Shown here: in pieces, positions 1,507 to 16,715 of the stretch
Layout: the number at the start of each line of letters is the position of its first letter
How positions within the stretch are numbered: the stretch's first letter is position 1
Origin: Bdellovibrio sp. ZAP7
GTDB taxonomy: Bacteria; Bdellovibrionota; UBA1018; CAIMNF01
Direction: 5' to 3'
DNA length: 32,128 bases
NCBI GenBank assembly: GCA_945874535.1
Contig: CAMCGZ010000026.1
Location: 1-32,128 of the forward strand
Made by a program: the position numbers and the translations under genes
The notes under the pieces: generated by a model
Told to the model about the DNA's origin: nothing
What the model saw: only the letters and a program-made list of their open reading frames with translations
Databases searched by the model: none

Positions 1507-3735
1507 ATGAACTCCCGATCCCATTCGCTTCGATTCCGACTTTTGCTTCTGATCATTTCAGTGACCTTGCTGTTCGGCGTGATGGGGTTTTTCGTCTTGG
1601 AAAAGATCTCGGCAACGGTCGCACAAAAGGAGCTGCACTCCTTCCAGTCCTACTCCCTGTCGCTGGCGAGAAGCATCGAAGCCCAGTTCTTCGAACGCTA
1701 CGGGGACGTTCAGAGTTTCGCGGAGAGCCCTCTGGTGAAGTCCGGGTCACGCGAGGCAGCGGTTCCGTTTCTGAATCGCATGGTGGAACTGTATGGCATC
1801 TATGACCTGATCCTGGTGACCAATGAGAATGGAAAACTGATCGCGGTCAATTCGAAAGGACCGGACGGAAAGACCATCGAGACAGAAGCCCTCTACGCGC
1901 GCGACTACTCCCAGTCCGAGTGGTTCCGGGCGGTTCAAGAAGGGAAGGCCACCGAATCCTCCGAAAAAGGCCTGAAAGGGACCTATTTTCAGGATGTTCA
2001 CTTGGATCCTGACACTTCGAGCGCCTACGGCACCCATCACCTGAGCAACAGTTTCAGCACCGCCCTCCGCGACGCCCGCGGTCGCGGGATCGGCGTGATT
2101 TCTGCGCACGCCGGATCCCGATGGTTCGAAGTCCCGATCAAAGAAACTTACAGCAATCTGAAAAAGCTCGGCATGAACACGAGCGATGTGAGCCTGATCG
2201 CCAAGGACGGGACTCTCCTGTTTGAGTACTCCTCGAACCCTGCGGTGACCGAACTCGATCCCGCCCGGTACGACATGAAGCGACTCCTGAAAATCAATTA
2301 TGCCACCGCCGGATTCGAACCGGGAAAGCGCCTGAGTGAGGGCAAAGATGGCTCAGGAACCCACTATGACCCGACCTCGGGCGAGACTTACACCTCGGGG
2401 TTCACTCCGCTGAAAGGTCCGAAGTTCGTCGATTCGATCGGATGGGGCGTTCTGGTCCGGAACTCATCAAAGTTCAACGAGGGTCTGGCCGAGTTGAATG
2501 CCTTCAAGGTGCGCGTTTATTGGATCATGGGGATCCTGATGCTCGTGGCCTGGATCGCAGCAGGGTTCCTGTCGTCTTCTCTGGCGCGGAAGATCTCCGA
2601 CCTCGCCCGCTCCCTCTCGGAGCGGACCCGGGAAGTGGCGTCCGCCGCCCATTCGATCTCGGCATCCAGCCAGAATCTTTCCTCATCGGTCAGTCAGCAA
2701 GCGGCCTCACTTCAGGAAACCGCCTCGGCTCTCGAACAAATCGGATCCATGATCCAATCGAGTAGCGACAACGCGGTCCGATCGGTGGAAGCATCGAAAA
2801 AAAGCCATGAATTGGCAGGTACGGGATGCAGCTCAATGGACCAACTCATCGGAGCGATGAGCGAAATCAAGAGCGGCTCAGAAGTCATTCTGGAGCGGGT
2901 GGATCAGGGCAATGCCAAGATCACCGGTATCGTGAATCTGATTCAGGAAATCGGCCAGAAGACCAAGATCATCAATGACATCGTCTTTCAAACCAAACTG
3001 CTTTCGTTCAACGCATCGGTTGAAGCCGCCCGTGCAGGCGAGCACGGGAAGGGGTTCTCGGTCGTGGCTGAAGAAGTCGGAAACCTGGCCCAGATGAGCG
3101 GGACCGCAGCCAAGGAAATCTCGAATTTGCTGGAGTCGAGCACCCAAAGGGTGGAGGAGATTGTGCGGGAAACGAGGTCCCTCGTGGAACAGGAAGCCCG
3201 TCGAGGCCGGGATCAGGTCGAAAAGGGCACGGGAGTGGCGACCCAGTGCCGTGAAATCCTGGAACAGATTTTCGAGGGTACGGGCTCTGTCCAGGCGATG
3301 GTGACGGAAATCTCCGGAGCGACACGCCAGCAAAGTCAGGGCATCCAGGAGATCAACAAGGCCATGAGCCAGCTCGATCAAGCCACCCAGCAAAACTCAG
3401 GAATTTCCCAGACTGGTGCTTCTGCTGCGATCCAGCTGACCGCCCAATCCGAACAGCTGGAGAAACTTGTGGTCGAGCTCCACTCGGCTGTATTCGGGGG
3501 ACACTCCGGGCAGCCCGCCAGCCCGTCTGTCGAGCCGGAGCCGGAGATCCAGACCGAACACAAAGTCGAGCCATCTCGTGTGCAAGCAAGTGAGCCCAAG
3601 GTGGAGCCAGTTCTCACTCGAACCGAACGGAAGGCCTCTCCGGAACCTCGATCCAAAACCGCCCAAGTGACTAAGACGGTGGATCCCGGGCTTGGCGTTC
3701 CGAGTGCGGACGATCCCCGTTTCGAGGATCTCTGA
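1507..3735 (+). CDS. methyl-accepting chemotaxis protein with periplasmic Cache-like sensor
   Basis: A 742-residue transducer that senses a periplasmic ligand and signals to CheA/CheW. TM1 spans about residues 12-32, a large Cache-like sensor about 35-330, and TM2 about 337-357. No clear HAMP domain follows; the chain passes into a long coiled coil with the signalling hairpin near 485-515 (INDIVFQTKLLSFNASVEAA, ARAGEHGKGFSVVAEEV). From about 669 a Pro/Glu-rich tail runs to a C-terminal DPRFEDL, which resembles the flexible tether and terminal pentapeptide that recruits CheR in other receptors; that reading is inference. The ATG at 1507 is chosen over an upstream TTG at 1489 because GGAAGGA precedes it by nine bases. 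The ABC ATPase starts 37 bases downstream and may be co-transcribed. Confidence 0.93.
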   Translation: MNSRSHSLRFRLLLLIISVTLLFGVMGFFVLEKISATVAQKELHSFQSYSLSLARSIEAQFFERYGDVQSFAESPLVKSGSREAAVPFLNRMVELYGIYDLILVTNENGKLIAVNSKGPDGKTIETEALYARDYSQSEWFRAVQEGKATESSEKGLKGTYFQDVHLDPDTSSAYGTHHLSNSFSTALRDARGRGIGVISAHAGSRWFEVPIKETYSNLKKLGMNTSDVSLIAKDGTLLFEYSSNPAVTELDPARYDMKRLLKINYATAGFEPGKRLSEGKDGSGTHYDPTSGETYTSGFTPLKGPKFVDSIGWGVLVRNSSKFNEGLAELNAFKVRVYWIMGILMLVAWIAAGFLSSSLARKISDLARSLSERTREVASAAHSISASSQNLSSSVSQQAASLQETASALEQIGSMIQSSSDNAVRSVEASKKSHELAGTGCSSMDQLIGAMSEIKSGSEVILERVDQGNAKITGIVNLIQEIGQKTKIINDIVFQTKLLSFNASVEAARAGEHGKGFSVVAEEVGNLAQMSGTAAKEISNLLESSTQRVEEIVRETRSLVEQEARRGRDQVEKGTGVATQCREILEQIFEGTGSVQAMVTEISGATRQQSQGIQEINKAMSQLDQATQQNSGISQTGASAAIQLTAQSEQLEKLVVELHSAVFGGHSGQPASPSVEPEPEIQTEHKVEPSRVQASEPKVEPVLTRTERKASPEPRSKTAQVTKTVDPGLGVPSADDPRFEDL

Positions 3736-3772
3736 GGTTGTCAGGAAAGAGGGTTCGTGCAAAAGTCAGCGC

Positions 3773-4453
3773 ATGCTTTTGCAAGTGCGTTCACTCGAAA
3801 AAACCTACTCCCGGGGTGAAGAGACGATTCATGCGCTGAGAGGCGTGAGTCTCGAGATTCCCGAAGGTCAGTTCGTCTCCATCATGGGGCCAAGCGGATC
3901 CGGAAAAAGCACCCTGCTTCACTTGATGGGGGGACTGGATCGGCCGAGCTCGGGACAGGTGATCCTGGGCGGTGAATCGATCGACCGCCTCAGCGACCAC
4001 GATCTCTCTTTGTTCCGACGTCGGAAACTCGGTTTCATTTTCCAGTTCTTCAACCTTCTCCCCACTCTCTCTGCCCTCGAGAACGTGGCCCTTCCGCGCC
4101 TTCTCGGGAACGAGTCTCTGAAGGAAATCGAACCCCGTGCCCGGGAACTTCTCGGCATGATGGGGCTCGAGAGCCGGATTCATCACAAACCCGACCAACT
4201 CTCGGGTGGAGAAATGCAGCGGGTGGCGATCGCCCGCGCATTAATCAGTGACCCGCTCCTGATTCTCGCAGATGAACCCACTGGGAATCTCGACTCTAAA
4301 ACCGGTGAATCCATCCTCACTCTCTTGCGGGATATGGCACTCAAAACAGGGAAGACCATCGTGATGGTCACCCATGATCCGAAAGCCGCCTCCTTCGGGA
4401 ACCGGCTTCTCCGGATGCGCGACGGGGTGCTCGAGTCGGATGAGACTGTATAA
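3773..4453 (+). CDS. ABC transporter ATPase, LolD/MacB type
   Basis: 226 residues with every motif of an ABC ATPase: Walker A GPSGSGKS, Q-loop (FIFQFFNLL), signature LSGGEMQR, Walker B LILADEPTGNLD and H-loop THD. The FNLLP and DEPTGNLDSKTG stretches are typical of the LolD/MacB/FtsE branch, which drives FtsX-type permeases that act on periplasmic or lipoprotein substrates and do not themselves form a channel. The ATG at 3773 gives the usual N-terminus (MLLQVRSLEKTY) and length, though no strong ribosome binding site is visible. The stop overlaps the permease start by 14 bases, so the two are translationally coupled. Confidence 0.93.
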   Translation: MLLQVRSLEKTYSRGEETIHALRGVSLEIPEGQFVSIMGPSGSGKSTLLHLMGGLDRPSSGQVILGGESIDRLSDHDLSLFRRRKLGFIFQFFNLLPTLSALENVALPRLLGNESLKEIEPRARELLGMMGLESRIHHKPDQLSGGEMQRVAIARALISDPLLILADEPTGNLDSKTGESILTLLRDMALKTGKTIVMVTHDPKAASFGNRLLRMRDGVLESDETV

Positions 4454-7043
4454 CACTTTCCGTCACATTGGACTCAGCCACCTGAAGGCAAGACCGGCAA
4501 GAGCTGTTCTGACCACTCTCGGGGTTGCGTTCGGGATTTCGCTCTACGTGGCGATCGCCATCATCAACCACTCGACCCGCAACTCCATGCGCGACAGCAT
4601 CGATGCCGTGGCGGGAAAGGCCAGACTCAGCATCTCGGCCGGCATCGCAGGGTTTCCGGAAAGCCGCCTCGAGGTGATCCGGGTGATCCCCGGCGTGAAA
4701 TCCGCAGTACCGATGATCGAGGCACGCGCCTTTTTCGAGGGAGCGACCGAATCAGCCGACGGTCTCCAGATCATGGGTGTGGACCTCCTGCAAGAGGCTT
4801 CCGTCCGCACCTACAAAGCCACCGATCAGAAGATCATCGATGATCCCCTCACCTTCCTGAACCAGTCCGACAGCATCATCCTGACCCAGGCCCTTGCAGC
4901 GAAACGCGGACTCAAGATCGACGACAAGATCCGGCTCTCGACCGCTCTCGGCGCGCGTGAGTTCACCATCCGCGGACTGCTCGAGCCCGAGGGCGCGGCC
5001 AAGGCCTACGGGGGCTCGTTGGCCATCATGGACATCGACGGCGCCCGGGTGAGCTTCGGTAAAGAGAACAAGCTCGACCGTGTGGACATCGTTCCGCGAA
5101 ACGGCGAGGACCTGAATGCCCTCCAAGTCAGGATCGAGTCCGCATTGGGATCCGGGTACAGGGTGGAACGCCCCGAAACCCAATCCGAGCAGATGGAGCG
5201 CATGCTCGACTCCTACCAGTTGATCCTCACTTTTTTCAGCTCCCTGGCCCTCTTGGTCGGACTGTTTCTGGTCATGAATTCCATTTCCGTCGCCATTGCG
5301 GAGCGCAAGCGCGAAATCGGAACCCTCCGGGCTCTGGGGGCGACGCGATCTCTCATGGTCGCACTGTTTGTGAGCGAGGTAGTCGGGATCGGATTCATCG
5401 GGTCTGCTTTGGGTTGCGTGCTCGGAAAAGGACTTGCCCACCGGATGTCTTCGCAGATCACCACCTCGGTGGCGGCACAGTTCCAGATGAGAATCGAAAT
5501 CTCCCACTTGGAGTTCACCGTCTCACAAATGATTTTCACCCTGTTGGCAGGGACCGCCGCGGCGGTGATTGCGGCATTTTTTCCGGCCCTCCGTGCGGCG
5601 ACCATCCACCCGCTCGAGTCGATGCGCCGTCACTCCGAGTCACTCGATCCGGTCGAGACCCGGCGATCCAATCTCCAAGTGCTTCTCGGGATCCTTCTGC
5701 TCGGGTTCATGAGCCTCTCCATGATTTTTTCGTGGGGAAAGCTTTGGATCGGGATCGACCTCATGACCAAAGCCTCGGCTGTTCTCGGAGCGGCACTGTT
5801 CGGGCCCTTTCTGGTGCTCGGACTCTTGCGACTCACCCGCGGACTTGGCGCAAACCTTTCTTTTCCCATCCTTCGCCTGGCACAAGAGAACCTCCTTCGT
5901 TCAAGAAAGCGCACCGGGGCCAATGTGATGGCTCTCATGGTCGGGCTGTTTCTGGTCATGTTGATTGCGAGTGTCCGCTCGAGCTTTCATGACACTTTGA
6001 CCCAATGGCTCGACCGGATTTTTGTGGCAGACATCATGGTGGGTTCCAACGGACGTTTCATCAGTGGAGACGTCCAGGCGATCCAAGACTCGATCTTGCC
6101 GGAGCTTCTCTCCGTACCGGGAATCAAGCCCATCGGTGCCGACCGCGGTGCCGCCACGCGGATCGTCCCGTATTTCTATGAAGGTAAGAAAATGGCGATT
6201 AAGGCCATCGACCGTTATGCGGATTTCTACCGTTTTCAAAACATCCCGGTGACCGGATCCGACCGGACCCGCACAGCCCTCGACTGGTACGAAAGCGCGG
6301 AACCAGCGGCATTGGTCTCGAGAGGCTTCCTCACCAATGCCAAAAAGAAAGTCGGTGACCACTTCGAACTCGACTCACCCGGCGGAAAAGTCAGTTTCCG
6401 GATTGCGGGTGAGATCGTCGACTATGCATCCTCCCAGGGTGTGATTTATCTCGATCGCAAGGTCTATAAGAAATTCTGGAACGACTCCCTCGTGACCGTT
6501 TTCGTCCTGAACCTCGAGTCCGGAACCACTTTCGAGCAGGTCCGGACTGAGATCGCCAAGAGACTCGGTAAAAAATGGAACCTGGTCACCATCTCCAACC
6601 GCGAGTTCAAGGATCAGATGCAATCGGCTGTGGAGCGGAGCTTCGCCTACACCCGGGTGATCGAGACCATCGCCCTCCTCGTGGGCCTGCTCGGCCTCCT
6701 CAATACACTTCTGATCAGCGTGATGGAACGGACCCGTGAGATCGGGGTCCTCCGTGCCATCGGATCCACCCGTATCCAGATTTCGAAAATGATCCTGTTC
6801 GAGGCGGTGATCCAGGGCTTCTTCGGCGCCTGTGTCGCAATCCTGCTCGGTGCCTATGTGGGGAGGCTTTTTGTCGAATACGCTCTCACTGAACAACTGG
6901 GTTGGATCATCGAATACCATTTCCCAAAACAATCGGTCTGGATGACCATCATCACTGGAGTCCTGGTCGCCGCTCTCGCGGGCATCTGGCCCGCACGGCG
7001 CGCCTCAGGTCTCGAAATTACGGAGGCCCTGGATTATGAATAA
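4440..7043 (+). CDS. double FtsX/MacB-type ABC permease
   Basis: 867 residues of the ABC3/FtsX permease superfamily in the duplicated form. TM1 is near residues 20-40, followed by a periplasmic MacB-PCD-like region, then a three-helix FtsX module (about 260-400) with the cytosolic motif AERKREIGTLRALGATR. Two central helices come next, then a second TM (TGANVMALMVGLFLV), a second periplasmic domain, and a second FtsX module with MERTREIGVLRAIGSTR, ending WPARRASGLEITEALDYE. About ten TM helices in all. Such permeases use ATP to move lipoproteins, lipids or peptides away from the outer face of the inner membrane. The ATG at 4440 is inside the end of the ATPase gene. The stop overlaps the next start by eight bases. 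Confidence 0.93.
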   Translation: MRLYNTFRHIGLSHLKARPARAVLTTLGVAFGISLYVAIAIINHSTRNSMRDSIDAVAGKARLSISAGIAGFPESRLEVIRVIPGVKSAVPMIEARAFFEGATESADGLQIMGVDLLQEASVRTYKATDQKIIDDPLTFLNQSDSIILTQALAAKRGLKIDDKIRLSTALGAREFTIRGLLEPEGAAKAYGGSLAIMDIDGARVSFGKENKLDRVDIVPRNGEDLNALQVRIESALGSGYRVERPETQSEQMERMLDSYQLILTFFSSLALLVGLFLVMNSISVAIAERKREIGTLRALGATRSLMVALFVSEVVGIGFIGSALGCVLGKGLAHRMSSQITTSVAAQFQMRIEISHLEFTVSQMIFTLLAGTAAAVIAAFFPALRAATIHPLESMRRHSESLDPVETRRSNLQVLLGILLLGFMSLSMIFSWGKLWIGIDLMTKASAVLGAALFGPFLVLGLLRLTRGLGANLSFPILRLAQENLLRSRKRTGANVMALMVGLFLVMLIASVRSSFHDTLTQWLDRIFVADIMVGSNGRFISGDVQAIQDSILPELLSVPGIKPIGADRGAATRIVPYFYEGKKMAIKAIDRYADFYRFQNIPVTGSDRTRTALDWYESAEPAALVSRGFLTNAKKKVGDHFELDSPGGKVSFRIAGEIVDYASSQGVIYLDRKVYKKFWNDSLVTVFVLNLESGTTFEQVRTEIAKRLGKKWNLVTISNREFKDQMQSAVERSFAYTRVIETIALLVGLLGLLNTLLISVMERTREIGVLRAIGSTRIQISKMILFEAVIQGFFGACVAILLGAYVGRLFVEYALTEQLGWIIEYHFPKQSVWMTIITGVLVAALAGIWPARRASGLEITEALDYE

Positions 7044-7854
7044 ACACCTCATTCGCATTTCACTGATCACCTCGCTCATTCCCGCCTTCTCATGGTCCGC
7101 GCAGGCCGAAACCGCGCTCGAGATCATGAAGAAGAACGAGGAGGTCAGGAAAGTGAACGAGTTCGAGTCCCGGGCCAAGCTCACCACCGGGAACTCGGCC
7201 GAAAAAACTGAAAAAGTGAAGGAGTTCACCTTTTGGAGGAAAGTCCAGGCGGACCGGATCCACAACAGTACCCTCACACGGTTCCACTCACCTGCCGAGG
7301 TCCGTAACGAAGGAATTCTCATCCTGGAGAATCCGGACGGAAAGAATGATGTGCTGTTGTATCTGCCGAACTTCAAGAAAACCCGCAGGGTGGAAAGTCA
7401 GCAACAGAGCGGGAGCTTCATGGGGTCGGTGTTCAGTTATTCCGACATCGCCACGCCTCACACCTCGGACTACCTCTACAAAACGCTCCGACAGGAAAAG
7501 TGTCCGGGGGCCGAACATGCCTCAGTCCAGTGTCACGTGATCGAGGCTTTGCCCGTAAATGAGGACGTGCTCGAGCGGACCGGTTACTCGAAATCCGTGG
7601 TCTGGGTCCGGACGGACAATTTCATGGCTGTGAAGGGAGAATACACCAACGCCCAGGGCGAACTCTTCAAACGCTTGGAAGCCGGTCAGATCAAGATGGT
7701 CGATCCGAAAGAGAAGAAATGGCTCGCTCATTTCCTCTCGATCGAGAACCTGAAGACCCGTGACTATACCCGTCTCCTGTTCTCGAATGTGAAGGTGAAC
7801 GGAGGAATCGCGGACGCGGTATTCACCCAGCAGAATCTCCAGAAAGTCCGATGA
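7036..7854 (+). CDS. LolA-like outer-membrane lipoprotein-sorting family protein
   Basis: 272 residues with a signal peptide cleaved after about WSAQA, hence periplasmic. The body (TFWRKVQADRIHNS, RNEGILILENPDG, VLLYLPNFKKTRRV, GSVFSYSDIATP, then WVRTDNFMAVKGEY) fits the 'outer membrane lipoprotein-sorting protein' family, a LolA-like half-barrel that carries lipidated or hydrophobic cargo. It has only two cysteines (CPGAEHASVQC), probably a disulfide. It overlaps the permease gene by eight bases and the barrel gene by four (ATGA), which strongly couples the three. The likely role is to accept cargo extracted by the ABC unit and pass it to the barrel. The cargo is unknown. Confidence 0.85.
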   Translation: MNKHLIRISLITSLIPAFSWSAQAETALEIMKKNEEVRKVNEFESRAKLTTGNSAEKTEKVKEFTFWRKVQADRIHNSTLTRFHSPAEVRNEGILILENPDGKNDVLLYLPNFKKTRRVESQQQSGSFMGSVFSYSDIATPHTSDYLYKTLRQEKCPGAEHASVQCHVIEALPVNEDVLERTGYSKSVVWVRTDNFMAVKGEYTNAQGELFKRLEAGQIKMVDPKEKKWLAHFLSIENLKTRDYTRLLFSNVKVNGGIADAVFTQQNLQKVR

Positions 7855-9221
7855 CCCGGCATTGGTTTCCGATCCTGGCATGCTTGCTTTTCCAGGATCC
7901 AGCAGCGCTAGCCGCTCCACCGAAGAACAAGGGCTACCGGCGCCCCGTACCTGTGGTCCGTACCGTGGTTCCGGATCCCACACCGGCCCCCACCCCCGCT
8001 TTGGAATGGCGGGGCCGTCTCTACACGGATCAGTACTGGTTCACTGCAGGCTCACGCCCGGGGGAGTTCGAACATTCCTCGATTTCCGCCTGGCTCGATG
8101 TCTCTTCAGAGGTCACTTCGAAGTCCGGATTTCGCGGAGTGGTTCAACTGGACGCCTTCTACCGTGACATCAATCATCCTGATTCGAGTAGTGCCCGATT
8201 GAGGGTGAGAGAGGCTTATTACTCGTATCTGGGTGATGGAATCGAATTCAGGATCGGTCAGCAGATCATCCCGTGGGGACGTTCCGACGGAGTCAACCCC
8301 ACCGACTACTTCACGGCAAAAGACATGACCCTCTTGAACCCCGATGACGAGGTCAGGCGTCTCGGGGCTCCCGGATTCAGTTTGAATTACACTCCCGATG
8401 GCGGAGCCTCGCCCTTCACAGTGCAATTCGTTTTCCAGGCGGCCTATCCGCAAATGCGGATGCTGATTCCGGACCAGTCGATTCCCCCCGGCATCGTTTT
8501 CGAGAAAACCGCTCCCGCACCGGACTGGTTTCGTTCCGACTCGATGGAGGCCGGAGTGAAGCTCTCCTATCAACAATCCTCCTTCGACCTCTCTTTCTCC
8601 GCCTTCCGGGGGCGCTCCGCATATGCCCAGTACCTCTTCGATCTCCCCACCGCCTCGATCCGCGCGGTCCATCCCGGTGAAACCGCAGTGGGTGCTGACG
8701 GGTCCTTCACCTGGGATGCCCAGGTGTTCCGTTTCGAAACCGCCCTGCGGATGCCAGACAACGGCACGCGGGATGACCCGAACTTCGGGCTGGTCCAGCC
8801 TTGGCACTGGGACAGCACCATCGGAGTCGAGCGCCCCCTGGGGGACGACTTCAGGATACAGGCCCAGTTTCTGTACCGTTGGCACCTGTTTTACCCGAAC
8901 ACCATGGCCTTTCTGCCCGTACAGGTCGCTGTCGGGAATGCGAATGCCCTCATTCTCAATTATCAGGATCAGGGCAACCCGGGAGGCACCCTCCGTCTGG
9001 CCTGGCAACGGGACGGTTCGAACCTGACCGCAGATGTCTTCATGGTCGGCTACTTTGCCAGCGGCGAGAGTTACCTGATCCGTCCCCAGGTGGGATACAC
9101 CCCGTTCACCAACATGAAGTGGGTTGCAGGTGCTGACCTGTACGGAGGCAATCCCGATCGGCCCCTCGGTGCACTCCGCTCCAGGAGTCACCTGTTTTTC
9201 GAGGCGAAATATGTATTCTGA
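7851..9221 (+). CDS. DUF1302-like outer-membrane beta-barrel protein
   Basis: 456 residues: a signal peptide (FPILACLLF to AALAA), a short Pro-rich linker (PDPTPAPTPAL), then alternating amphipathic strands to the C-terminus, ending in KYVF with the terminal Phe typical of barrels folded by BamA. The segment FRIGQQIIPWGRSDGVNPTDYF is characteristic of DUF1302-like barrels, which in other genomes often sit beside LolA-like or DUF1329 proteins and RND/ABC pumps. It starts inside the stop of the LolA-like gene (ATGA), so stoichiometric expression is likely. It may be the outer-membrane acceptor or exit point of the ABC system; this is inferred from context only. A 391-residue antisense frame here is a shadow. 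Confidence 0.87.
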   Translation: MTRHWFPILACLLFQDPAALAAPPKNKGYRRPVPVVRTVVPDPTPAPTPALEWRGRLYTDQYWFTAGSRPGEFEHSSISAWLDVSSEVTSKSGFRGVVQLDAFYRDINHPDSSSARLRVREAYYSYLGDGIEFRIGQQIIPWGRSDGVNPTDYFTAKDMTLLNPDDEVRRLGAPGFSLNYTPDGGASPFTVQFVFQAAYPQMRMLIPDQSIPPGIVFEKTAPAPDWFRSDSMEAGVKLSYQQSSFDLSFSAFRGRSAYAQYLFDLPTASIRAVHPGETAVGADGSFTWDAQVFRFETALRMPDNGTRDDPNFGLVQPWHWDSTIGVERPLGDDFRIQAQFLYRWHLFYPNTMAFLPVQVAVGNANALILNYQDQGNPGGTLRLAWQRDGSNLTADVFMVGYFASGESYLIRPQVGYTPFTNMKWVAGADLYGGNPDRPLGALRSRSHLFFEAKYVF

Positions 9222-9236
9222 TACCGGGGGCTCCGC

Positions 9237-10073
9237 ATGATCCGTAGAATCGAGATCCTTGAGGCGGGCCATACCCATCAACTCGAATACTTCGCAAATC
9301 CGGTATCAGGAAAGTTCGAGACGGTCCGCTTCCCGACCACTGTGGCCCTGATCGAACATGCGGCCAGAGGATTGATCCTGTTCGACACTGGCGTCACTCC
9401 CCGACTCCGGCATCTGCTCAAACGCTTTCCGGAACACCTGTTCTCGAATCTATTCTCGATCCGGATCGACTATGAAACCACCGCGGTTCACCAGTTGAAG
9501 AATCTCGGAATCCGGCCGGATGAAATCCGGCATATTGTGCTTTCGCACTTCCACTCGGATCACATCGCAGGAGTGAATGACTTCCCTACTGCCAGGTTCT
9601 TTTTTTCTCCCGAGGAGTACCGCTCGATGTGCGGGCTCTCGAGATTCGCCCGACTCCGGCATGCTTTCGTCCCGGAACTCCTTCCGCCGGACTTCGTTCA
9701 GCGAAGGTCAGAGCCGGGAGCGGAAACAGACCTTCCCCAGCTCGGGCCCGGATTCTCGGGACGCGACCTATTCGGCGATGGCTCGCTCTTTTTGGTGCCT
9801 CTTCCGGGGCACAGTCTCGGACACCAGGGTTTGTTCGTGCCAGATTATCTGGGAAAACCCTGGTTTTTTGTCGGCGACGCAGCCCACCTCAGTTCCTCGA
9901 TCCGGGACGGGACTTCACCCGTGAGTCTGGGAGCGAAACTGATCTTCCACGACACCGAACAGTACAATGAGACCCTCAGTCGGCTCCGGGGTGTGCCCGA
10001 AACAGTCTGCCTGCTCCCCTGTCACTGCAATGAAGCTTTCCAGAGGGCGAAGACTCAGTTGGTGAGTCCCTGA
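9237..10073 (+). CDS. metallo-beta-lactamase-fold hydrolase
   Basis: 278 residues without a signal peptide. The binuclear metal motif HFHSDHIAG lies at about 104-112, followed by PGHSLGHQG, the bridging Asp in VGDAAHL and a late His in LLPCHCNE, so all expected metal ligands are present. The arrangement is closest to the lactonase/AttM-like branch of the superfamily (N-acyl homoserine lactonases and relatives), but substrate cannot be assigned from sequence alone. The start at 9237 follows GGGGG by six bases and is 15 bases after the barrel gene, so it is probably the last gene of the same operon. Its end overlaps the convergent glycosyltransferase-like gene by 19 bases with no terminator visible between them. 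Confidence 0.88.
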   Translation: MIRRIEILEAGHTHQLEYFANPVSGKFETVRFPTTVALIEHAARGLILFDTGVTPRLRHLLKRFPEHLFSNLFSIRIDYETTAVHQLKNLGIRPDEIRHIVLSHFHSDHIAGVNDFPTARFFFSPEEYRSMCGLSRFARLRHAFVPELLPPDFVQRRSEPGAETDLPQLGPGFSGRDLFGDGSLFLVPLPGHSLGHQGLFVPDYLGKPWFFVGDAAHLSSSIRDGTSPVSLGAKLIFHDTEQYNETLSRLRGVPETVCLLPCHCNEAFQRAKTQLVSP

Positions 10074-11797
10074 CCGCGACCTTCTGCCTGAGATGAATCC
10101 ACGGCCCGCGGACGTGCCAGCTCGAGGGTTTTCGTCGTCCAGGCATTCAAAAGATCCATGCCTTCAATCATCAGATCCAGTGCCTGAATGGTTTCTTTCG
10201 CCATACCCGAAAGCGTCTGGCTTTCGAGATTGTGAATCCTCTGGCGATACCACTTCAACAAGCATTCGAGCTCGGGCTCGACTCGCGTCACCCGTCCAAT
10301 CAGGGCTTCCATCTCGAGGAGTTTCTTCCCGCAAGATTCGATCGCCTCACGATCCTCGACCGTCATCAGATGCCCGTTCCGGTTGCGTGAAGCAAGAGTC
10401 TCGAGTTCGCGCGCGGTTCCGCTCGCGCCACCGACAATCTGACTGATGACCTGAACGGAATCCCGGAGACTCCGGATACGCTTGATCAACGCGGAGCTCA
10501 GGGTCAATTTGGCGGCTTCTTGTTCGAGTTCCGGTAACCATCCACAAAACCACGCACGGGCCATTTGTCCCCGGACCCGGTAAATCCAAGCTTCGAACTC
10601 ACGGATCGCTCCGGCGGTCTGTTCGTAACAGACTCCGCCCCCTTCATTCGAAGGCCGGATCCTCGATTTGTAGATCTGAACGGTCTCGAGTTGGCGGTTG
10701 CAGCCCAGGTGATCGAAGTGCCCCTGTAGGGTGAGTGAGTTTTTATGGAACCACTCACTCTGGTAATAGGACCAGGCGGCATAGGCGGCATCGGGATCCC
10801 ATTCCTTGGACGCGGCCAGAACCACATGGCCGTTACCGTATGGACCCGTTTCAGCCCATTTTAGGCCGAATTCGCGGACTTCGGGACCGGTCGAATAAAA
10901 CACCCGCAAATTCACCAGGGACGCGAGGTCAACGAGAGGATCCGCCCCCGCGCACAACCAAGCACATTGGGAGAACACACTCAAAGTCGTATCGAAACCG
11001 GTGCTTGGATCCAGACGGATGACTCGCGGACTGTCCGGAAGGTCTCGAATATCTCCGGGTCCTACCACAACCATTCCGTAATCGGGATTCCGACGGAGGA
11101 CTCGCTCCATCCATTCCGACATCCGGGTCGGTGCGGAGGATGCGGAAATCGCAACCCACTTGAGCCCCTTGGGCCGTCGGGTCCAGTTGTCAGGAGATTC
11201 AAGTGAAACCGTTTTAAAGAAGTAACGGGAAGTCACCTGATGGTTTCCTGCGTCCTGAGCAGGCTCGCCGGCATGAATCTGGAGAGCGGTCAGGAGCTGG
11301 GTCGTGACCAGATCGGTTTCATGGATGTCTTGTTCCACTCCCCCCTGGCTCCAGGCATGACGGTACATGCTCCAGGCATCGAAAGACCCCTGGCTGGAAT
11401 CCTCGCGGAAATGATCGCCCAACTTCACGATGGCAGGAATGAGACTGGTGGCAATCGATGCCATCCTAGAGGTCGGTCCATTGCCGGTCCAGTTGGCGAG
11501 AATGTCGAATTTGCGCTCGACCACCGTTCCGAGCCAAGAGGCCACACTTTGAAGCGCGTTTTCACGATTGAGCCCCTGAGGGAGAGTCAGGACTTCATCC
11601 ATCCACTCCACACGGGAAACCGGATCCACACCTTCCGACCGGACCAGCATTCGAACGCGAATCGCGGGATAAAGCTGCTTCACAGCCTTTAATGCCATGA
11701 GAGATCGCAAAACCTCGGACAAGGATCCCATTTGAACGATCAAAAGCTCGAGCGGGCGTCGCGGTTCCTGTCTTGCGGTTTCGACCGGAGTATTCAT
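10055..11797 (-). CDS. divergent GT9-like glycosyltransferase with helical C-terminal domain
   Basis: 580 residues. The first ~340 resemble the heptosyltransferase (GT9, GT-B) fold: an N-terminal strand-loop (LLIVQMGSLSEVLRSLMALKAV), then a second Rossmann half (KWVAISASSAP, YGMVVVGPGD) and a nucleotide-sugar region (CAGADPLVDLASLVNLRVFY, GPYGNGH). Two usual residues are altered: the Asp of the N-terminal G-D motif is Glu, and the D-x-G-x-x-H motif reads ADPLVD. Activity is therefore uncertain. Residues ~350-580 are helical and not recognised. The start overlaps the 48-residue gene (ATGA). As the last gene of the flagellar cap operon it may modify a flagellar protein, or be a non-catalytic relative; this is inference. 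Confidence 0.6.
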   Translation of the reverse strand: MNTPVETARQEPRRPLELLIVQMGSLSEVLRSLMALKAVKQLYPAIRVRMLVRSEGVDPVSRVEWMDEVLTLPQGLNRENALQSVASWLGTVVERKFDILANWTGNGPTSRMASIATSLIPAIVKLGDHFREDSSQGSFDAWSMYRHAWSQGGVEQDIHETDLVTTQLLTALQIHAGEPAQDAGNHQVTSRYFFKTVSLESPDNWTRRPKGLKWVAISASSAPTRMSEWMERVLRRNPDYGMVVVGPGDIRDLPDSPRVIRLDPSTGFDTTLSVFSQCAWLCAGADPLVDLASLVNLRVFYSTGPEVREFGLKWAETGPYGNGHVVLAASKEWDPDAAYAAWSYYQSEWFHKNSLTLQGHFDHLGCNRQLETVQIYKSRIRPSNEGGGVCYEQTAGAIREFEAWIYRVRGQMARAWFCGWLPELEQEAAKLTLSSALIKRIRSLRDSVQVISQIVGGASGTARELETLASRNRNGHLMTVEDREAIESCGKKLLEMEALIGRVTRVEPELECLLKWYRQRIHNLESQTLSGMAKETIQALDLMIEGMDLLNAWTTKTLELARPRAVDSSQAEGRGQGLTN

Positions 11798-11940
11798 ACC
11801 GCCTCCCGGGCGGCAACCGCGAGCTCTTCGGCTGTCAGAATCTCGAGGGCCAGCTCCTCCACCAATTGGAGGGTATTCTTGGGCCTCTGATCCGGGTCTT
11901 GAATGATTTTTCCTTGTAGAAGTTCGATGTCAGCTACCAT
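11794..11940 (-). CDS. 48-residue protein between TPR and glycosyltransferase-like genes
   Basis: A short frame easily missed by gene callers. The ATG at 11938-11940 is preceded by GGAGG with a four-base gap and translates to 48 residues starting MVADIELLQGKIIQDPD and ending LAVAAREAV. The composition is acidic and largely alpha-helical (NTLQLVEELALEILTAEEL). It is coupled to the downstream gene by a four-base ATGA overlap and lies 33 bases after the TPR gene stop, which supports real translation. No family is recognised; a small adaptor or stabiliser of the TPR/glycosyltransferase pair is possible but unproven. The ribosome binding site sits in the loop of a small inverted repeat (CTGTC..GACAG). 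Confidence 0.65.
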   Translation of the reverse strand: MVADIELLQGKIIQDPDQRPKNTLQLVEELALEILTAEELAVAAREAV

Positions 11941-11973
11941 CTGTCCTCCATGACAGTTGATCCAGGCGTCGGT

Positions 11974-13122
11974 TCACTCCGCCTCGATTCGGTTCATCAG
12001 GTCTTTCGCACCCTGGTGATCAGCCTTGATCTGGAGAATCCTTCTCGCAGTGATCGCAGCTTCATTTTTCTTTCCGACGTGGAATTGCAGTCCGGCCAGG
12101 CTGTACAACAGGCTTGGGCTCACGGGCGCGACGTCCACATAAGAAGAAAGCAATTTCTCGGCATGAGCGTACTTTTTGATTTCGTACGCGCACTTGACGA
12201 GGTGGAAAATGGCAGTGGAATTCCGGAGATTCAACTCCAATGAGCGGGCAAAGGCATCGTGAGCGGATTCCTTGTTTCCTTCGGAAACATGACACAGTCC
12301 GAGTCCTACCCACGCTTTGTCATTTTCAGGATTCGCAGCAACTGCATCCTGGTAGCAACGCTTGGCTTCGACCGCCTGACCCTGCTCCAGATAGAGAGAA
12401 CCGAGATTGGCCTGAACCTCGTCGCTTGCCGGACTCAGCTCGAGGGCTTTTTTGTAAGCACGCTCGGCATCGACCACCTGACCCAAACGGGCCATGCAGT
12501 TTCCGATCATTTTCTGGTATTCGGCCTTTTCTTGGGTTCCGAGATCCAGAGAACGGAGGGCGCGGGAGAGCGCTTGGGCAGCCTCTTGATCCCGACCTTG
12601 TTGAACGAGAAGTTGGGCCAACAATTGGTAACCAGGCTTGTTCGGAGCAAAAGCCACCGAGTCCCAGGCAAACTGAATCGCCTGATCGACCATGCCTTCA
12701 CGATCTGAACAGGCCGCAAGCCCGGCGTAGGCGATATCACTGGCCTCGCCCGATCTCAAAATGGCCCGGAACACATTCCGCGCAAGGGCCACCTCGCCAG
12801 CCGCGAGCAAAATTTGTGCATTTTCAGCAAGATAGGGGATGTCTTCTTTTTCGGTGGCCGCGGACCCGGCCACTGCGCCACTCCCGGTTTCCGAGACGGC
12901 TGGAGCACTGACAGGCTCCTGAACCGGTGTGTTCATGAAGGGGGGCGGGGTCACCGCCTTCATTTTCGGGGTCCGGATTTGGGCAAGGTAGTACTCATAC
13001 TGGTACTCCTCGTCGCTGTCCTGGAGGTGGATGGCCACATCTTCGAGAGAGGCCACACTAAAGAACCGGGTGTTGTCGGATGAAGAGTTTTGCGAAAGCT
13101 GTCCCAGTTGTTCAAACATCAT
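11974..13122 (-). CDS. tetratricopeptide-repeat protein of the flagellar operon
   Basis: 382 residues, cytosolic (no signal peptide). The first ~95 are polar and contain a Pro-rich stretch (TPPPFMNTPVQEP). From ~95 on there are about eight TPR-like helix pairs, clearest in AYKKALELSPASDEVQANLG, CYQDAVAANPENDKAWVGLG and AFARSLELNLRNSTAIFHL. TPRs bind protein partners. The gene lies 14 bases after the FliT-position gene and upstream of the 48-residue and GT9-like genes. One idea is that it delivers a flagellar protein to the transferase, in the way TPRs present substrates to O-GlcNAc transferases; the sequence does not prove this. Two adjacent ATGs (13122, 13119) are possible starts, with only a weak GTGAGA upstream. 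Confidence 0.85.
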   Translation of the reverse strand: MMFEQLGQLSQNSSSDNTRFFSVASLEDVAIHLQDSDEEYQYEYYLAQIRTPKMKAVTPPPFMNTPVQEPVSAPAVSETGSGAVAGSAATEKEDIPYLAENAQILLAAGEVALARNVFRAILRSGEASDIAYAGLAACSDREGMVDQAIQFAWDSVAFAPNKPGYQLLAQLLVQQGRDQEAAQALSRALRSLDLGTQEKAEYQKMIGNCMARLGQVVDAERAYKKALELSPASDEVQANLGSLYLEQGQAVEAKRCYQDAVAANPENDKAWVGLGLCHVSEGNKESAHDAFARSLELNLRNSTAIFHLVKCAYEIKKYAHAEKLLSSYVDVAPVSPSLLYSLAGLQFHVGKKNEAAITARRILQIKADHQGAKDLMNRIEAE

Positions 13123-13136
13123 GTTTTTCGTCTCAC

Positions 13137-13586
13137 TTAAACCGTTTGATCAATCCCGTCTCCAGTCGGGGACTGGGATTGGCTTTTAAACTTCGACACC
13201 GCCTCTTTTTCCTTGAGGCTTTTCAGAATCCGGCTGCGTAGCTCGTACCCTGTACCTTGAATGTATAGAAAAAGTGACTGATCCGTCAATTGAATCTCGC
13301 GAATGATGGTCATCACCCCGTCAAGAACCTCCTTGAAGCCCGGATCGGACTGCAGACGGATCACCTCGGGGGGTAAAAGTGCCTTCTTGGCCTGGTCGAT
13401 TTCGGCGTCGAGCGCCTGCATGACCCGGAGATTCGCCTCACGGACATCCGAAAGCTCGTCGATCAGATCGAGTTTCTCTTCAATCTCGACCCCTTCCTTC
13501 GAAAGGGATGTGTGAAAACCGCGCGTCCGCTCCAGGAAACTGCGAAGGAGCCTCTGCTTTTCTTCAAATAGCTTGATGATTTTCAT
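13137..13586 (-). CDS. FliT-position flagellar protein (putative chaperone)
   Basis: 149 residues, highly charged and predicted almost entirely helical (FEEKQRLLRSFLERTRGF, EKLDLIDELSDVREANLRV). The ATG at 13586 overlaps the fliS stop (ATGA), which fixes the start; a longer upstream frame is not needed. In many bacteria fliD-fliS is followed by fliT, encoding a small helical chaperone of FliD. Size, helicity and position match, but sequence similarity is too low for me to call it FliT outright. It could be another export chaperone or lineage-specific. Confidence 0.65.
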   Translation of the reverse strand: MKIIKLFEEKQRLLRSFLERTRGFHTSLSKEGVEIEEKLDLIDELSDVREANLRVMQALDAEIDQAKKALLPPEVIRLQSDPGFKEVLDGVMTIIREIQLTDQSLFLYIQGTGYELRSRILKSLKEKEAVSKFKSQSQSPTGDGIDQTV

Positions 13587-13972
13587 CCTGCGTTCACTTT
13601 CTGTTGTTTGACCTGTTCGATGGCACCCTTCCACCCTTCGAGGAGATTCTCGAGGAGCTTCCGGGCCTGGTCGAACTTGGTCGGATCGTTTTCGAGGTTG
13701 CCCCGGGTGATCTGTTCGATCATGAAGGCATAAAGACGCTCGAGGTTCTTGGCAATATCGCCCCCCACATTGAAATCGAGTGAATTCGACAACTCATTGA
13801 TGATGTCATGGGCCTTTCCGACCGCAACGCCTTTCCCTGCCAGATCTTTGGTCTGGGTGCATTCGGATGCTTTTTTAAGATACTTGATCGCACCTTCATA
13901 AAGCATGATGAGCACCTGCTCACGGGATGCAGTGGTCACGGCTGTTTGCTTGTATGCGTTGAACTTACTCAT
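13583..13972 (-). CDS. fliS: flagellar export chaperone FliS
   Basis: 129 residues with the classic FliS pattern: an N-terminal NAYKQTAVTTASREQVLIML (the conserved Y-x-x-x and LI-x-MLY-x-G-A region), then AHDIINELSNSLDF, NLERLYAFM and a helical end. FliS is a small cytosolic helical bundle that binds flagellin's C-terminus and keeps it unfolded for export. AGGAGG lies eight bases before the ATG and overlaps the fliD stop; the intergenic gap is four bases, so fliD and fliS are coupled. Confidence 0.95.
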   Translation of the reverse strand: MSKFNAYKQTAVTTASREQVLIMLYEGAIKYLKKASECTQTKDLAGKGVAVGKAHDIINELSNSLDFNVGGDIAKNLERLYAFMIEQITRGNLENDPTKFDQARKLLENLLEGWKGAIEQVKQQKVNAG

Positions 13973-13976
13973 GGAT

Positions 13977-15377
13977 TCATCCTCCTAATAACTGCGATAC
14001 CGGATTTCCTCCGCCACCCCCGAGGGTGGCAGAAAGATAACTTTGTTGCCGCTGAAGCTCGGACAGGGATCCTTGCAAACGGCTGAACTGGTTGGTCAGC
14101 GACTCGGTCTTCTTCTCGATCGCACGCTGCTTGCTGGATATCGATTCGTCGATCTGCCGGATCCGTGCCTGGAGACCCTTTTCCCGGGCCACCATCACTC
14201 CGCCCTGTACGTTGGCGAAGCCGTCCATCACCGACTTCAGCTGGGTGATGAAACCCCGTTCTCCGGATACGGCCTCGGCCACACCTTCGAAGTCCGACTC
14301 GAGCGCTTTCTGGAATTTCTCTTCTTTGAGCTGGACCACGCCCTTCTTGTCGAATTCGATTCCGAGCTCGCTCAAATGCACCACCTTGAACGAGTCCTCA
14401 TTCTCAGTATGGGACCCGAAGCCCTCGTGCATGAGGTTCCTGAGACGGAATTCGATGTTCTGAAGAGAAGTATCGCCCGCGAACGTGCTCTTGGTGTCCG
14501 AACTCTCATTGACCGCGTTCTGCTTGTTGATGAAGTCGAGGACTCCGTTGATTCCCTCGACCACCCTTTTGACCTTGTCGGTGACCTTGGCGTAATCGGC
14601 CTTCACATTGAAAGTGAACTTCTGACCGGGCTTGGCCTGTTTCAATTGGACTCCGATCCCTTGAAGAAAATCGGGGACTTCGTTTCCGGGGAGCTCGATC
14701 TCGAATCCATCCACCACCAACAATGCGTTTTTGGCCCCCTTGTCCTGGTCGATGTACAACTCCTCCTGACCATCCACGAAGTACATTTGCGGAAACTTCA
14801 CCTCGCTCTCGGAACCGTCTTTCTTGGCGGTGATCACGAGTCGATAGGGTTTTTCGGTATCGGTCACATCCTTGAGGACGGTGGCCTTCACCGGACTGTC
14901 GAGCATGAGATTGATCTTATTGGCGACACCGTACAGGGAGGCATCTTCCTCGGTGACGTAGATGTCGTGGCTTTTGCCATCGGGAAGATCGAAGGAGATG
15001 GATCCCACGCCGAGAACCTTTTTGTTCGGATCGCTGAATCCGTTGGAGATCATCGAAGATCGCTCTGCGAGCTCCTTGATCTCGACTTCCCAACTCCCGA
15101 CGTTGGCCTTTTCTTTATCGACATTGACCGCCATGAGCTGGGCACCATCACCCAATTCGGCCCTCAATTCTTTGAACTTCGAAAAGCCGATCATCGACTC
15201 TAGAGAGCCTTGCAGTGCGGAGAATTTCCCTTTGAAATCACCAAAGAGCTTCAATTTAGCGTTTTCCGCCTCCTTGCGCTTCTCGAGGGATTTGACCGGC
15301 TGTTTTTCAGCCTCGATGATGGCGTTCAAAGCCTGTTTGAACTGGCCTCCGCCCATGGGATCAAAACGTAAACCCAC
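13977..15377 (-). CDS. fliD: flagellar hook-associated protein 2 / filament cap FliD
   Basis: 466 residues. The N-terminus (VGLRFDPMGGGQFKQALNAI, then EKQPVKSLEKRKEAENAK) and a long central region followed by a C-terminal coiled coil (IDESISSKQRAIEKKTESL, FSRLQGSLSELQRQQSYL, then SQLLGG) match FliD, which caps the growing filament and guides flagellin folding. FliS and a FliT-position gene follow directly. I choose GTG at 15375-15377 because AAGGAGG precedes it by about nine bases and the product then starts as FliD proteins usually do; an upstream ATG at 15401 would place that site inside the gene. A 386-residue antisense frame here is a shadow. Confidence 0.93.
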   Translation of the reverse strand: MGLRFDPMGGGQFKQALNAIIEAEKQPVKSLEKRKEAENAKLKLFGDFKGKFSALQGSLESMIGFSKFKELRAELGDGAQLMAVNVDKEKANVGSWEVEIKELAERSSMISNGFSDPNKKVLGVGSISFDLPDGKSHDIYVTEEDASLYGVANKINLMLDSPVKATVLKDVTDTEKPYRLVITAKKDGSESEVKFPQMYFVDGQEELYIDQDKGAKNALLVVDGFEIELPGNEVPDFLQGIGVQLKQAKPGQKFTFNVKADYAKVTDKVKRVVEGINGVLDFINKQNAVNESSDTKSTFAGDTSLQNIEFRLRNLMHEGFGSHTENEDSFKVVHLSELGIEFDKKGVVQLKEEKFQKALESDFEGVAEAVSGERGFITQLKSVMDGFANVQGGVMVAREKGLQARIRQIDESISSKQRAIEKKTESLTNQFSRLQGSLSELQRQQSYLSATLGGGGGNPVSQLLGG

Positions 15378-15424
15378 GCTTGAAGTCCTCCTTGACCTCA
15401 TCTCTTATTTTGAAGGAATTCCCA

Positions 15425-16189
15425 CTAAAATCCAGGGAAATTGCGGCGTGAGATCATTTCTCCATCAGATTCCGGGAAATTCCCGCAGACTAGAAATTGA
15501 CGGTGAACCGGCGGATAACCCATATTGAAATAAAAGCCGCCTGCCGAGTCAAGGTCGTGACAGTGACCAAGGATCACACCGTCAAATCCCCGAGCTCGGA
15601 TCGCGGAGGCGAACTCCCGGAATACCTTTCTCAGGGAATCCCGCCGGAAGGGGGGCCAGCTTTCCGGTAACTCCCCGGCCTGTCGCTCCGGGGACCTCGA
15701 AAGCCGTGAAGCCACCCGGTCGATCCAAGCACCGGGGAGGATTCGCGCCAGACCCTGCAGGGGGGGCGATCTGAAAAAAGCCCTGAGTTGCAGGTAGCCG
15801 ATGTCGTTCTGATCGACCAAATCGCCATGGGCGACATAAAGCTTGCGGACGCCGGTTGCCCCCTCCATTTCAACACAGACCGCCTCGGGCTCGAAGCGGA
15901 CTCCGCGGGGCAGGAACCCCGACAAATGGAAGTCATGGTTACCCTCGATATAGAAGACCCGCACCTGTCGCGAGAGCAATCGAACGACGGAATCGATGAA
16001 ATCCCGGTGCTTGATCCGGAAGTATTCGGAATCACCGACCACCAGATCGAAGATGTCTCCGGCAAAAACCACCGCATCCCCCTCACCCGCAGGTTCCTCG
16101 AGGGCGGCGATCAGCGAACGGTATAAAGGCTCATTAGGACGGGTCAGGTGCAAATCCGAAAAGACCCAAACCCGGCGAAACCGTTCCAT
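15425..16189 (-). CDS. lpxH: LpxH-type UDP-2,3-diacylglucosamine pyrophosphohydrolase (metallophosphoesterase)
   Basis: 254 residues of the calcineurin-like phosphoesterase fold. All metal motifs are present: SDLHL (D12, H14), GDIFDL (D45, D48), EGNHDF (N84, H85), AHGDLVDQND and GHCHDLD. The SDLHL...GDIFDL...GNHDF set with about 250 residues is typical of LpxH, which hydrolyses UDP-2,3-diacylglucosamine to lipid X in lipid A synthesis at the inner membrane. Start and stop are shared with the upstream FlaG-like gene (TGATG, one base). fliD follows 47 bases later with its own ribosome binding site and no promoter visible between. A different phosphoesterase specificity is possible. Confidence 0.75.
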   Translation of the reverse strand: MERFRRVWVFSDLHLTRPNEPLYRSLIAALEEPAGEGDAVVFAGDIFDLVVGDSEYFRIKHRDFIDSVVRLLSRQVRVFYIEGNHDFHLSGFLPRGVRFEPEAVCVEMEGATGVRKLYVAHGDLVDQNDIGYLQLRAFFRSPPLQGLARILPGAWIDRVASRLSRSPERQAGELPESWPPFRRDSLRKVFREFASAIRARGFDGVILGHCHDLDSAGGFYFNMGYPPVHRQFLVCGNFPESDGEMISRRNFPGF

Positions 16190-16557
16190 CAGGCTTTTTG
16201 ATCGAGAATACGTCCGGATTTATTTCCCGAATGGATCGCCTCGCGGAGACGGAGAAACTCCTCACCCGAGACCGACCGGAGGATTCCTCCGGCCCCGTCT
16301 TTCAATACCACCCGAAGTCCGGGGCCGCTCCCCACCGATGAGGCACTGATCCCGTGAGAGAGATTGGTCTCATCCACAGTGAAAGACTCGATCGCCTCCT
16401 CCAGAGCCTCGGCCGTGACAGGAGTTTGGTCTTCTTTTTTTTCTTGTTTCTTCTGGCGTTCGTAAGCATTGGACCCCGCGCCCCCCTGCTTGTCGTTACC
16501 CGCCTCGGTGATCCGGCCAAAAGAGGCCTGAATCGGTATAAAGGTCTGGATCTTCAT
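16189..16557 (-). CDS. FlaG-like small protein heading the flagellar operon
   Basis: 122 residues starting MKIQTFIPIQASFG. A charged middle region (ERQKKQEKKEDQTPVT) precedes a C-terminal domain (GLRVVLKDGAGGILRSVSGE, then EFLRLREAI) that recalls the FlaG family, where a '..V.D..TG.VIR.IP.EE.L' end is typical. FlaG genes commonly lie just upstream of fliD. The resemblance is modest, so I leave the symbol blank. The ATG at 16557 follows GGAGGG at a normal distance; the longer frame to 16671 lacks such a site. It overlaps the LpxH-type gene by one base. Confidence 0.55.
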   Translation of the reverse strand: MKIQTFIPIQASFGRITEAGNDKQGGAGSNAYERQKKQEKKEDQTPVTAEALEEAIESFTVDETNLSHGISASSVGSGPGLRVVLKDGAGGILRSVSGEEFLRLREAIHSGNKSGRILDQKA

Positions 16558-16611
16558 TCCATCACCCTCCCAGCAGCTATTCGGCAAAACGGGAAGAATG
16601 ATTGAATTTGT

Positions 16612-16627
16612 TGCTTCTAGGCTGCCA
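16612..16627 (-). promoter_or_regulatory. candidate sigma-54 promoter for the flagellar operon
   Basis: On the reverse strand TGGCAGCCTAGAAGCA has GG and GC separated by exactly ten bases, the invariant -24/-12 spacing of sigma-54 promoters. The -12 side (AAGC) departs from TTGC. It would start transcription near 16600, about 44 bases before the FlaG-like gene. A GCCGAATA sequence at 16585-16578 resembles a sigma-28 -10 box and is an alternative. Confidence 0.35.
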
Positions 16628-16715
16628 GGGCTTTGAAGATTCAGGGGTTTTTTGTCACCCAATCGGGCCATTCCGCCCCGAACTTCACCCGACTGAAGCG
16701 AACTGCGCTTTTTTC

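Follow-up and report, generated by a model that had tools for sequence, protein, structure and literature searches.

A putative flagellar glycosyltransferase module behind fliD-fliS in Bdellovibrionota, with a candidate non-catalytic assembly factor in Bdellovibrio sp. ZAP7

Flagellin glycosyltransferases are usually regarded purely as enzymes. The Maf-type transferase Maf1 of Aeromonas does its work ahead of chaperone binding and is able to bind flagellin in the absence of sugar (PMC4065374), while TibC, a heptosyltransferase-type GT-B enzyme that modifies protein, requires an aspartate base (D110) and a lysine (K230) (PMC4358343). In WaaC, a heptosyltransferase of glycosyltransferase (GT) family 9 (GT9), the D13A, D261A, and K192A mutations cause a 4688-, 2027-, and 926-fold loss of activity, respectively (PMC5713226), and D13 and H266 were the sole residues conserved in every heptosyltransferase of one comparison (PMC3559599). 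The present analysis concerns three consecutive genes at the end of the fliD-fliS operon in a 32,128-nt stretch of Bdellovibrio sp. ZAP7 DNA (contig CAMCGZ010000026.1, positions 1 to 32,128; hereafter the window), i.e., those for a tetratricopeptide repeat (TPR) protein of 382 amino acids (11974..13122, minus strand; TPR_16, 1e-22), a conserved small protein of 48 amino acids (P48; 11794..11940, minus strand), and a heptosyltransferase-like protein of 580 amino acids (GT580; 10055..11797, minus strand). An initial annotation had delineated these open reading frames (ORFs) with coordinates that all proved correct, and its TPR assignment is certain. With a probability of about 0.58, we propose that they descend from an ancestral flagellar protein glycosyltransferase module, and that its transferase may now serve as a non-catalytic assembly factor in the window's genus.

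Family, fold, and active-site residues of GT580

When searched alone, GT580 had no Pfam match and hence failed the PF01075 cut-off, and its match to TIGR02193 (heptosyltransferase I) stayed sub-threshold (E 0.017). Likewise, a single-sequence search of the PDB returned no matches and a PHROGs search nothing useful; the GT9 relation is too remote for detection from the GT580 sequence alone. The relation itself, as proposed by the initial annotation, is nevertheless real: PF01075 matches 19 of 29 family members (E <= 0.1; best 3e-22), and the family profile retrieved WaaC, WaaF, and the Veillonella GT9 protein 3tov from the PDB (5.6e-12 to 2.3e-10). Moreover, Foldseek aligned the AlphaFold model of GT580 (predicted local distance difference test score, pLDDT, 88.6; predicted template modelling score, pTM, 0.87) best with WaaC complexes among PDB entries (E 3e-9, template modelling score of 0.69-0.70 on the target), and GT580 is thus predicted to adopt a WaaC-like GT-B fold. 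The same GT-B body also matched PnsB1 of the chloroplast NADH dehydrogenase-like (NDH) complex (9grx_1, 7f9o_6), although its setting is unrelated and its sequence link to the GT580 family is not significant (E 0.21). PnsB1 is a structural subunit of that complex, and may thus foreshadow how this fold can be put to non-catalytic use.

The register of GT580 against WaaC was set by a family-profile alignment, which placed E28 (codon at 11714..11716, minus strand) at the position of the catalytic base D13, A285 at D261, and D290 at H266, and revealed that K192 is deleted. The heptosyltransferase signature D261-(T/S)-(G/A)-x-x-H266 (PMC3559599) is thereby replaced by A285-D-P-L-V-D290 (10928..10945, minus strand). 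Both the Asp-to-Glu change in the N-terminal motif and the ADPLVD reading had been noticed initially and are borne out, with the lysine deletion coming in addition, but the divergence is not peculiar to GT580: it is genus-wide and recurs in other lineages. In all nine genus sequences, D13 is replaced by E, K192 is deleted, and H266 is replaced by D, while D261 is kept in one of the nine (A, P, Q, D, E, E, K, R, and Q across the set). By comparison, 14 fully intact orthologues from the largest sister family keep D13, K192, D261, and H266 altogether. Across five pocket positions, the genus retains 4% vs. a mean of 63% at core columns (P 0.0013 by sampling), the comparison columns being those core columns that are at least 90% conserved in the 14 intact orthologues. 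This genus-level figure alone was used, as the same test is partly circular for other degenerate sequences, which were chosen by pocket score. GT580 is therefore predicted to be catalytically inactive, a loss of activity that we infer from these substitutions. Single-residue calls are less sure at the deepest level, where identities fall to ~20%, than within the genus.

GT580 thus shares its GT-B fold and its profile matches with the GT9 heptosyltransferases WaaC (HepI) and WaaF, and D13, K192, and the D(T/S)xxxH motif occur in relatives at the corresponding place of the operon, whereas GT580 itself lacks D13, K192, D261, and H266, resides in a flagellar operon, and bears a C-terminal domain of ~230 residues without a PDB fold match. 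It also differs from the TibC/BAHT autotransporter heptosyltransferases: TibC acts on autotransporters and assembles into a dodecamer, and GT580 lacks the residues at the base and lysine positions of WaaC.

The C-terminal domain (residues 331-565; 10103..10807, minus strand) carries conserved GGGV and CGW motifs, and the C-terminal 250 residues were modelled as a beta hairpin followed by a bundle of long helices (pLDDT 87.5). Its fold search against the PDB returned generic helical bundles only, none of them significant (best E 0.044). In hhalign, the domain was related to the C-termini of GTb, i.e., the second of two tandem GT9 proteins encoded in fliD operons of other Bdellovibrionota (E 5.9e-5, probability 65). 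In addition, a tree of GT cores placed GT580 inside the GTb clade with a Shimodaira-Hasegawa-like approximate likelihood ratio test (SH-aLRT) support of 95; this tree takes in two GT9 paralogues from the same genome (L101 and L104) and, like the other trees, is a quick search with some open forks. Because of this clade placement and the relation to GTb C-termini, the domain marks the GTb orthologue group rather than a local addition, so that the helical domain described initially does exist but is common to the group instead of being an extra of GT580. Since GT580 combines the position next to the TPR gene after fliD-fliS with membership of the GTb clade and the shared helical domain, it is the orthologue of GTb.

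Ratios of non-synonymous to synonymous substitution rates (dN/dS) against the two closest genomes were 0.05-0.07 for GT580 and 0.03-0.05 for the TPR gene, and 0.02-0.03 for P48 within the closest trio, with the caveat that dS was ~1 or more and near saturation for the second genome. Since these ratios span 0.02-0.07 vs. two close relatives, GT580, P48, and the TPR gene are not chance ORFs. Within GT580, dN of the C-terminal domain was about half that of the GT core (0.045 vs. 0.089); purifying selection on GT580 is strong, and strongest in the helical domain.

Distribution and repeated change of the module

Throughout the window's order, which is represented nearly exclusively by metagenome-assembled genomes (MAGs), the TPR gene adjoined the GT gene in 31 of the first 31 loci, with fliD-fliS upstream wherever the contig extended. 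The same layout recurred in 16 further loci of the class, save for contig ends and split genes. All 58 genomes of this class encode FliD, and a strong GT match was present in all genomes of the order with a completeness of 90% or more. Nearly all order loci also carry small ORFs of the pattern LLxGE...VExLLxxLLxALLxE between the TPR and GT genes, homologous to P48. Among 30 fliD loci sampled from other classes, two tandem GT9 genes followed fliD-fliS in 18, one in 3, and none in 9. In most two-GT loci, the transferases are preceded by genes for a TPR homologue and for a ~200-residue protein, although the window's TPR query did not recognise the TPR gene in the loci of one family (f15). Judged from this gene order, the TPR-GT arrangement after fliD-fliS is an ancient layout, and the synteny supports TPR plus GT9 as a flagellar-operon module. 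The 20 FliD-negative genomes of the phylum that were scanned gave no match to a profile of the GTb C-terminus, consistent with a flagellar role.

The ~200-residue protein of the two-GT loci resembles the N-terminal domain of Maf (Maf_flag10_N) in five of eight members, one of which exceeds the Pfam cut-off. Such stand-alone Maf-N-like proteins were seen at loci L122-L140, and in L122 the gene lies between the TPR gene (ending at 4942) and the first GT gene, GTa (starting at 5556). To this extent the operon of the sister lineages is akin to the Maf flagellin glycosyltransferases; it differs from them in that the transferases are of the GT9 type, and the catalytic domain of Maf/MptE (PF01973) reached its cut-off in none of the 22 genomes tested (including that of the window), nor did it match GT580. 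The idea that P48 is what is left of the Maf-N-like protein was rejected, since hhalign detected no similarity.

Based on the five-position pocket score, GTb is near-complete in 18/18 two-GT loci, while 22/39 single-GT loci are degenerate (one of the 22, L133, clusters with the first transferase, GTa, in the GT core tree), with the reservation that the single-GT and two-GT counts are not phylogenetically independent. On a FliD-only tree, at least 10 changes between intact and degenerate states are needed, as seen for G031 beside G027 and for G029 beside G030/G035. WaaC and the outgroup lineages point to loss rather than gain as the probable direction of these changes. Decay of the transferase through lost ADP-heptose synthesis was considered and rejected, as HldE domain II is present in 23/23 genomes tested (including the window's own).

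Genes surrounding the module

On the minus strand, the genes follow each other in the order fliD, fliS, P149, TPR gene, P48, and GT580. The first two, encoding the filament cap protein (13977..15401; PF07195 134.5 bits, PF02465 44.5 bits) and the flagellin export chaperone (13583..13972; PF02561 134.2 bits, TIGR00208 above cut-off), were correctly identified by the initial annotation, which overlooked the P149 gene (13137..13586) between fliS and the TPR gene. P149 is a small helical protein of 149 amino acids under comparable constraint (dN/dS 0.06-0.09), with a conserved C-terminal tail (...KFKS...G..(L/I)D.T.), and is called FliT/FlgN-like after the weak FliT and FlgN matches of 5/16 and 4/16 of its relatives, respectively. 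Overlaps of 4 bp join the P149 start with the fliS stop and the GT580 start with the P48 end (ATGA). The TPR protein, whose homologues occupy the corresponding position throughout the phylum, showed no obvious signal peptide when read by eye. A scan for sigma-54-like promoters gave no more matches than expected by chance.

On the opposite strand, a gene of the metallo-beta-lactamase fold (9237-10073, plus strand) meets the GT580 gene tail to tail and overlaps its end. Its top NCBIfam likeness is the quorum-quenching N-acyl homoserine lactone (AHL) lactonase AttM (70 bits, far under cut-off), and three further genomes of the genus carry a homologue downstream of the GT gene, in two cases in direct convergence with it. 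Ahead of this gene on the plus strand, positions 3692-9221 hold a row of an ATP-binding cassette (ABC) ATPase, an FtsX/MacB-like permease with duplicated domains, a LolA-like lipoprotein-sorting protein, and a DUF1302-like protein, which probably form a lipoprotein or lipid export unit. An lpxH-like phosphoesterase gene and a gene for a 160-aa protein of unknown function (15425-16671, minus strand) immediately precede fliD in the window's family, and in several other families this pair lies several kb away on the opposite strand.

The closest named relatives of the window genome (a MAG of 2.4 Mb) are Bdellovibrionales, Oligoflexia, and Bacteriovoracaceae MAGs. The genome contains eight strong flagellin genes with open frames of 278-310 amino acids on contigs C11, C16, C3, and C17 (loci L151-L158), in addition to one weaker match on C1. 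Their short frames suggest flagellins with little or no outer variable domain.

Possible roles of GT580

The three genes probably represent a pared-down variant, specific to this lineage, of an old flagellar module of Bdellovibrionota behind fliD-fliS, the fuller version of which would comprise the TPR protein, the Maf-N-terminal-like protein, and two GT9 transferases. Such a module would most simply be a cytoplasmic unit for O-glycosylation of flagellin or FliD, with glycosylation preceding chaperone binding and export by analogy with Maf1. In the window's class, the second GT alone remains, accompanied in the window's order by the micro-protein P48, and in the window's genus this GT has lost its sugar-transfer residues while its GT-B body and helical C-terminal domain are retained under purifying selection. 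GT580 may then be a scaffold or escort that forms a cytoplasmic complex with the TPR protein and P48 and holds FliD or flagellin, with the helical domain as a putative binding surface, until FliS or the FliT-like protein takes over this cargo. We infer the ancestral glycosylation, its substrate, the formation of the complex, and the role in assembly alike. The FliT/FlgN/FliS chaperones, of which the cluster holds fliS and a FliT/FlgN-like gene, offer a parallel for such an escorting role, but neither GT580 nor the TPR protein belongs to these families.

Since its catalytic residues are lost and the GT-B body and helical domain are under purifying selection, GT580 is most likely a non-catalytic scaffold or escort. 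The initial annotation had offered both a protein modification pair, with the TPR protein presenting the substrate, and a non-catalytic flagellar factor. Because of the order- and phylum-wide synteny and the relatives with a complete signature, the former is the likely ancestral role, while in this genome the latter fits better, given the changed or missing D13, K192, D261, and H266 and a purifying selection that is strong and peaks outside the GT core. The structure prediction asked for at the time goes halfway towards dismissing a nucleotide-sugar pocket, with the GT-B fold predicted to be present but the sugar-binding residues gone.

The serious competitor, although an unlikely one, is that GT580 is still an active glycosyltransferase whose pocket has been remodelled, with E28 serving as base and D290/P287 rebuilt, and which uses a different sugar nucleotide on flagellin or FliD, the TPR protein presenting the acceptor. 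A glutamate can serve as base, the GT-B fold is kept, close orthologues retain the whole signature, and the operon position and TPR partner would suit protein glycosylation. Moreover, all nine genus sequences share E28, P287, and D290, as also expected of a remodelled active site, and this invariance weighs against a non-catalytic GT580, albeit that 97/330 core columns are likewise invariant in the genus. In the same direction, D261 is a serine in the characterised WahF and K192 varies in several enzymes (PMC3559599), so that loss of these two residues alone would not abolish activity. Nevertheless, K192 is deleted outright, and a single genus shows A, P, Q, D, E, K, or R at the D261 position, a free variation that is unlike a donor-binding residue. 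Other degenerate lineages display different residues again, and therefore no common new chemistry, and the C-terminal domain is more constrained than the core that would harbour such a pocket.

Two further points also count against a non-catalytic flagellar factor: its position within a vertically inherited cluster is no proof of a flagellar role, and since some flagellated genomes of the phylum do without the module, it is dispensable for flagella in general. Co-occurrence, the analysis of which had been suggested initially, is uneven: the GTb C-terminal domain was found in 0/20 FliD-negative genomes, yet its profile matched nothing in several flagellated genomes either, the profile being narrow and possibly missing degenerate members. 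It is conceivable, if rather improbable, that the TPR/GT pair was merely inherited beside fliD-fliS and works elsewhere, e.g., as a lipopolysaccharide (LPS) or envelope factor, as GT9 is chiefly a family of LPS-core enzymes, the GTs are missing from some flagellated genomes of the phylum, and the lpxH-like gene sits just upstream of fliD in the window. The absence of the domain from FliD-negative genomes speaks against this, as does the GT gene lying directly after fliD-fliS in every order locus seen while lpxH moves away; furthermore, four GT9 matches separate from GT580 exceed the Pfam cut-off in this genome and are available for envelope work. Finally, the disappearance of conserved residues from several catalytic positions might suggest a decaying remnant without function, but this reading is refuted by the selection result (dN/dS 0.05-0.07 with dS ~1 or more) and scarcely deserves credence, the 580-aa frame also being intact in close relatives and the TPR gene and P48 being equally constrained.

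Beyond the window's genus, a more tentative claim, to which we give slightly less than even odds, is that of an undescribed, phylum-wide GT9-type flagellar glycosylation module in which the second GT, after loss of its partner, repeatedly turned into a non-catalytic assembly factor. Within the open-access literature searched, we found neither a description of a TPR/Maf-N-like/GTa/GTb module nor a report of GT9 protein glycosylation in Bdellovibrio-type flagella. Such a module would predict that GT9 enzymes glycosylate protein in these flagella, and the family should not be annotated as LPS heptosyltransferases. As two-GT loci occur in a phylum of predatory bacteria with cultured members, and one operon position contains both intact and catalytically stripped orthologues, the separability of an assembly role from glycosylation becomes directly testable. 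If true, this single orthologous operon position would display the transition from enzyme to scaffold many times over.

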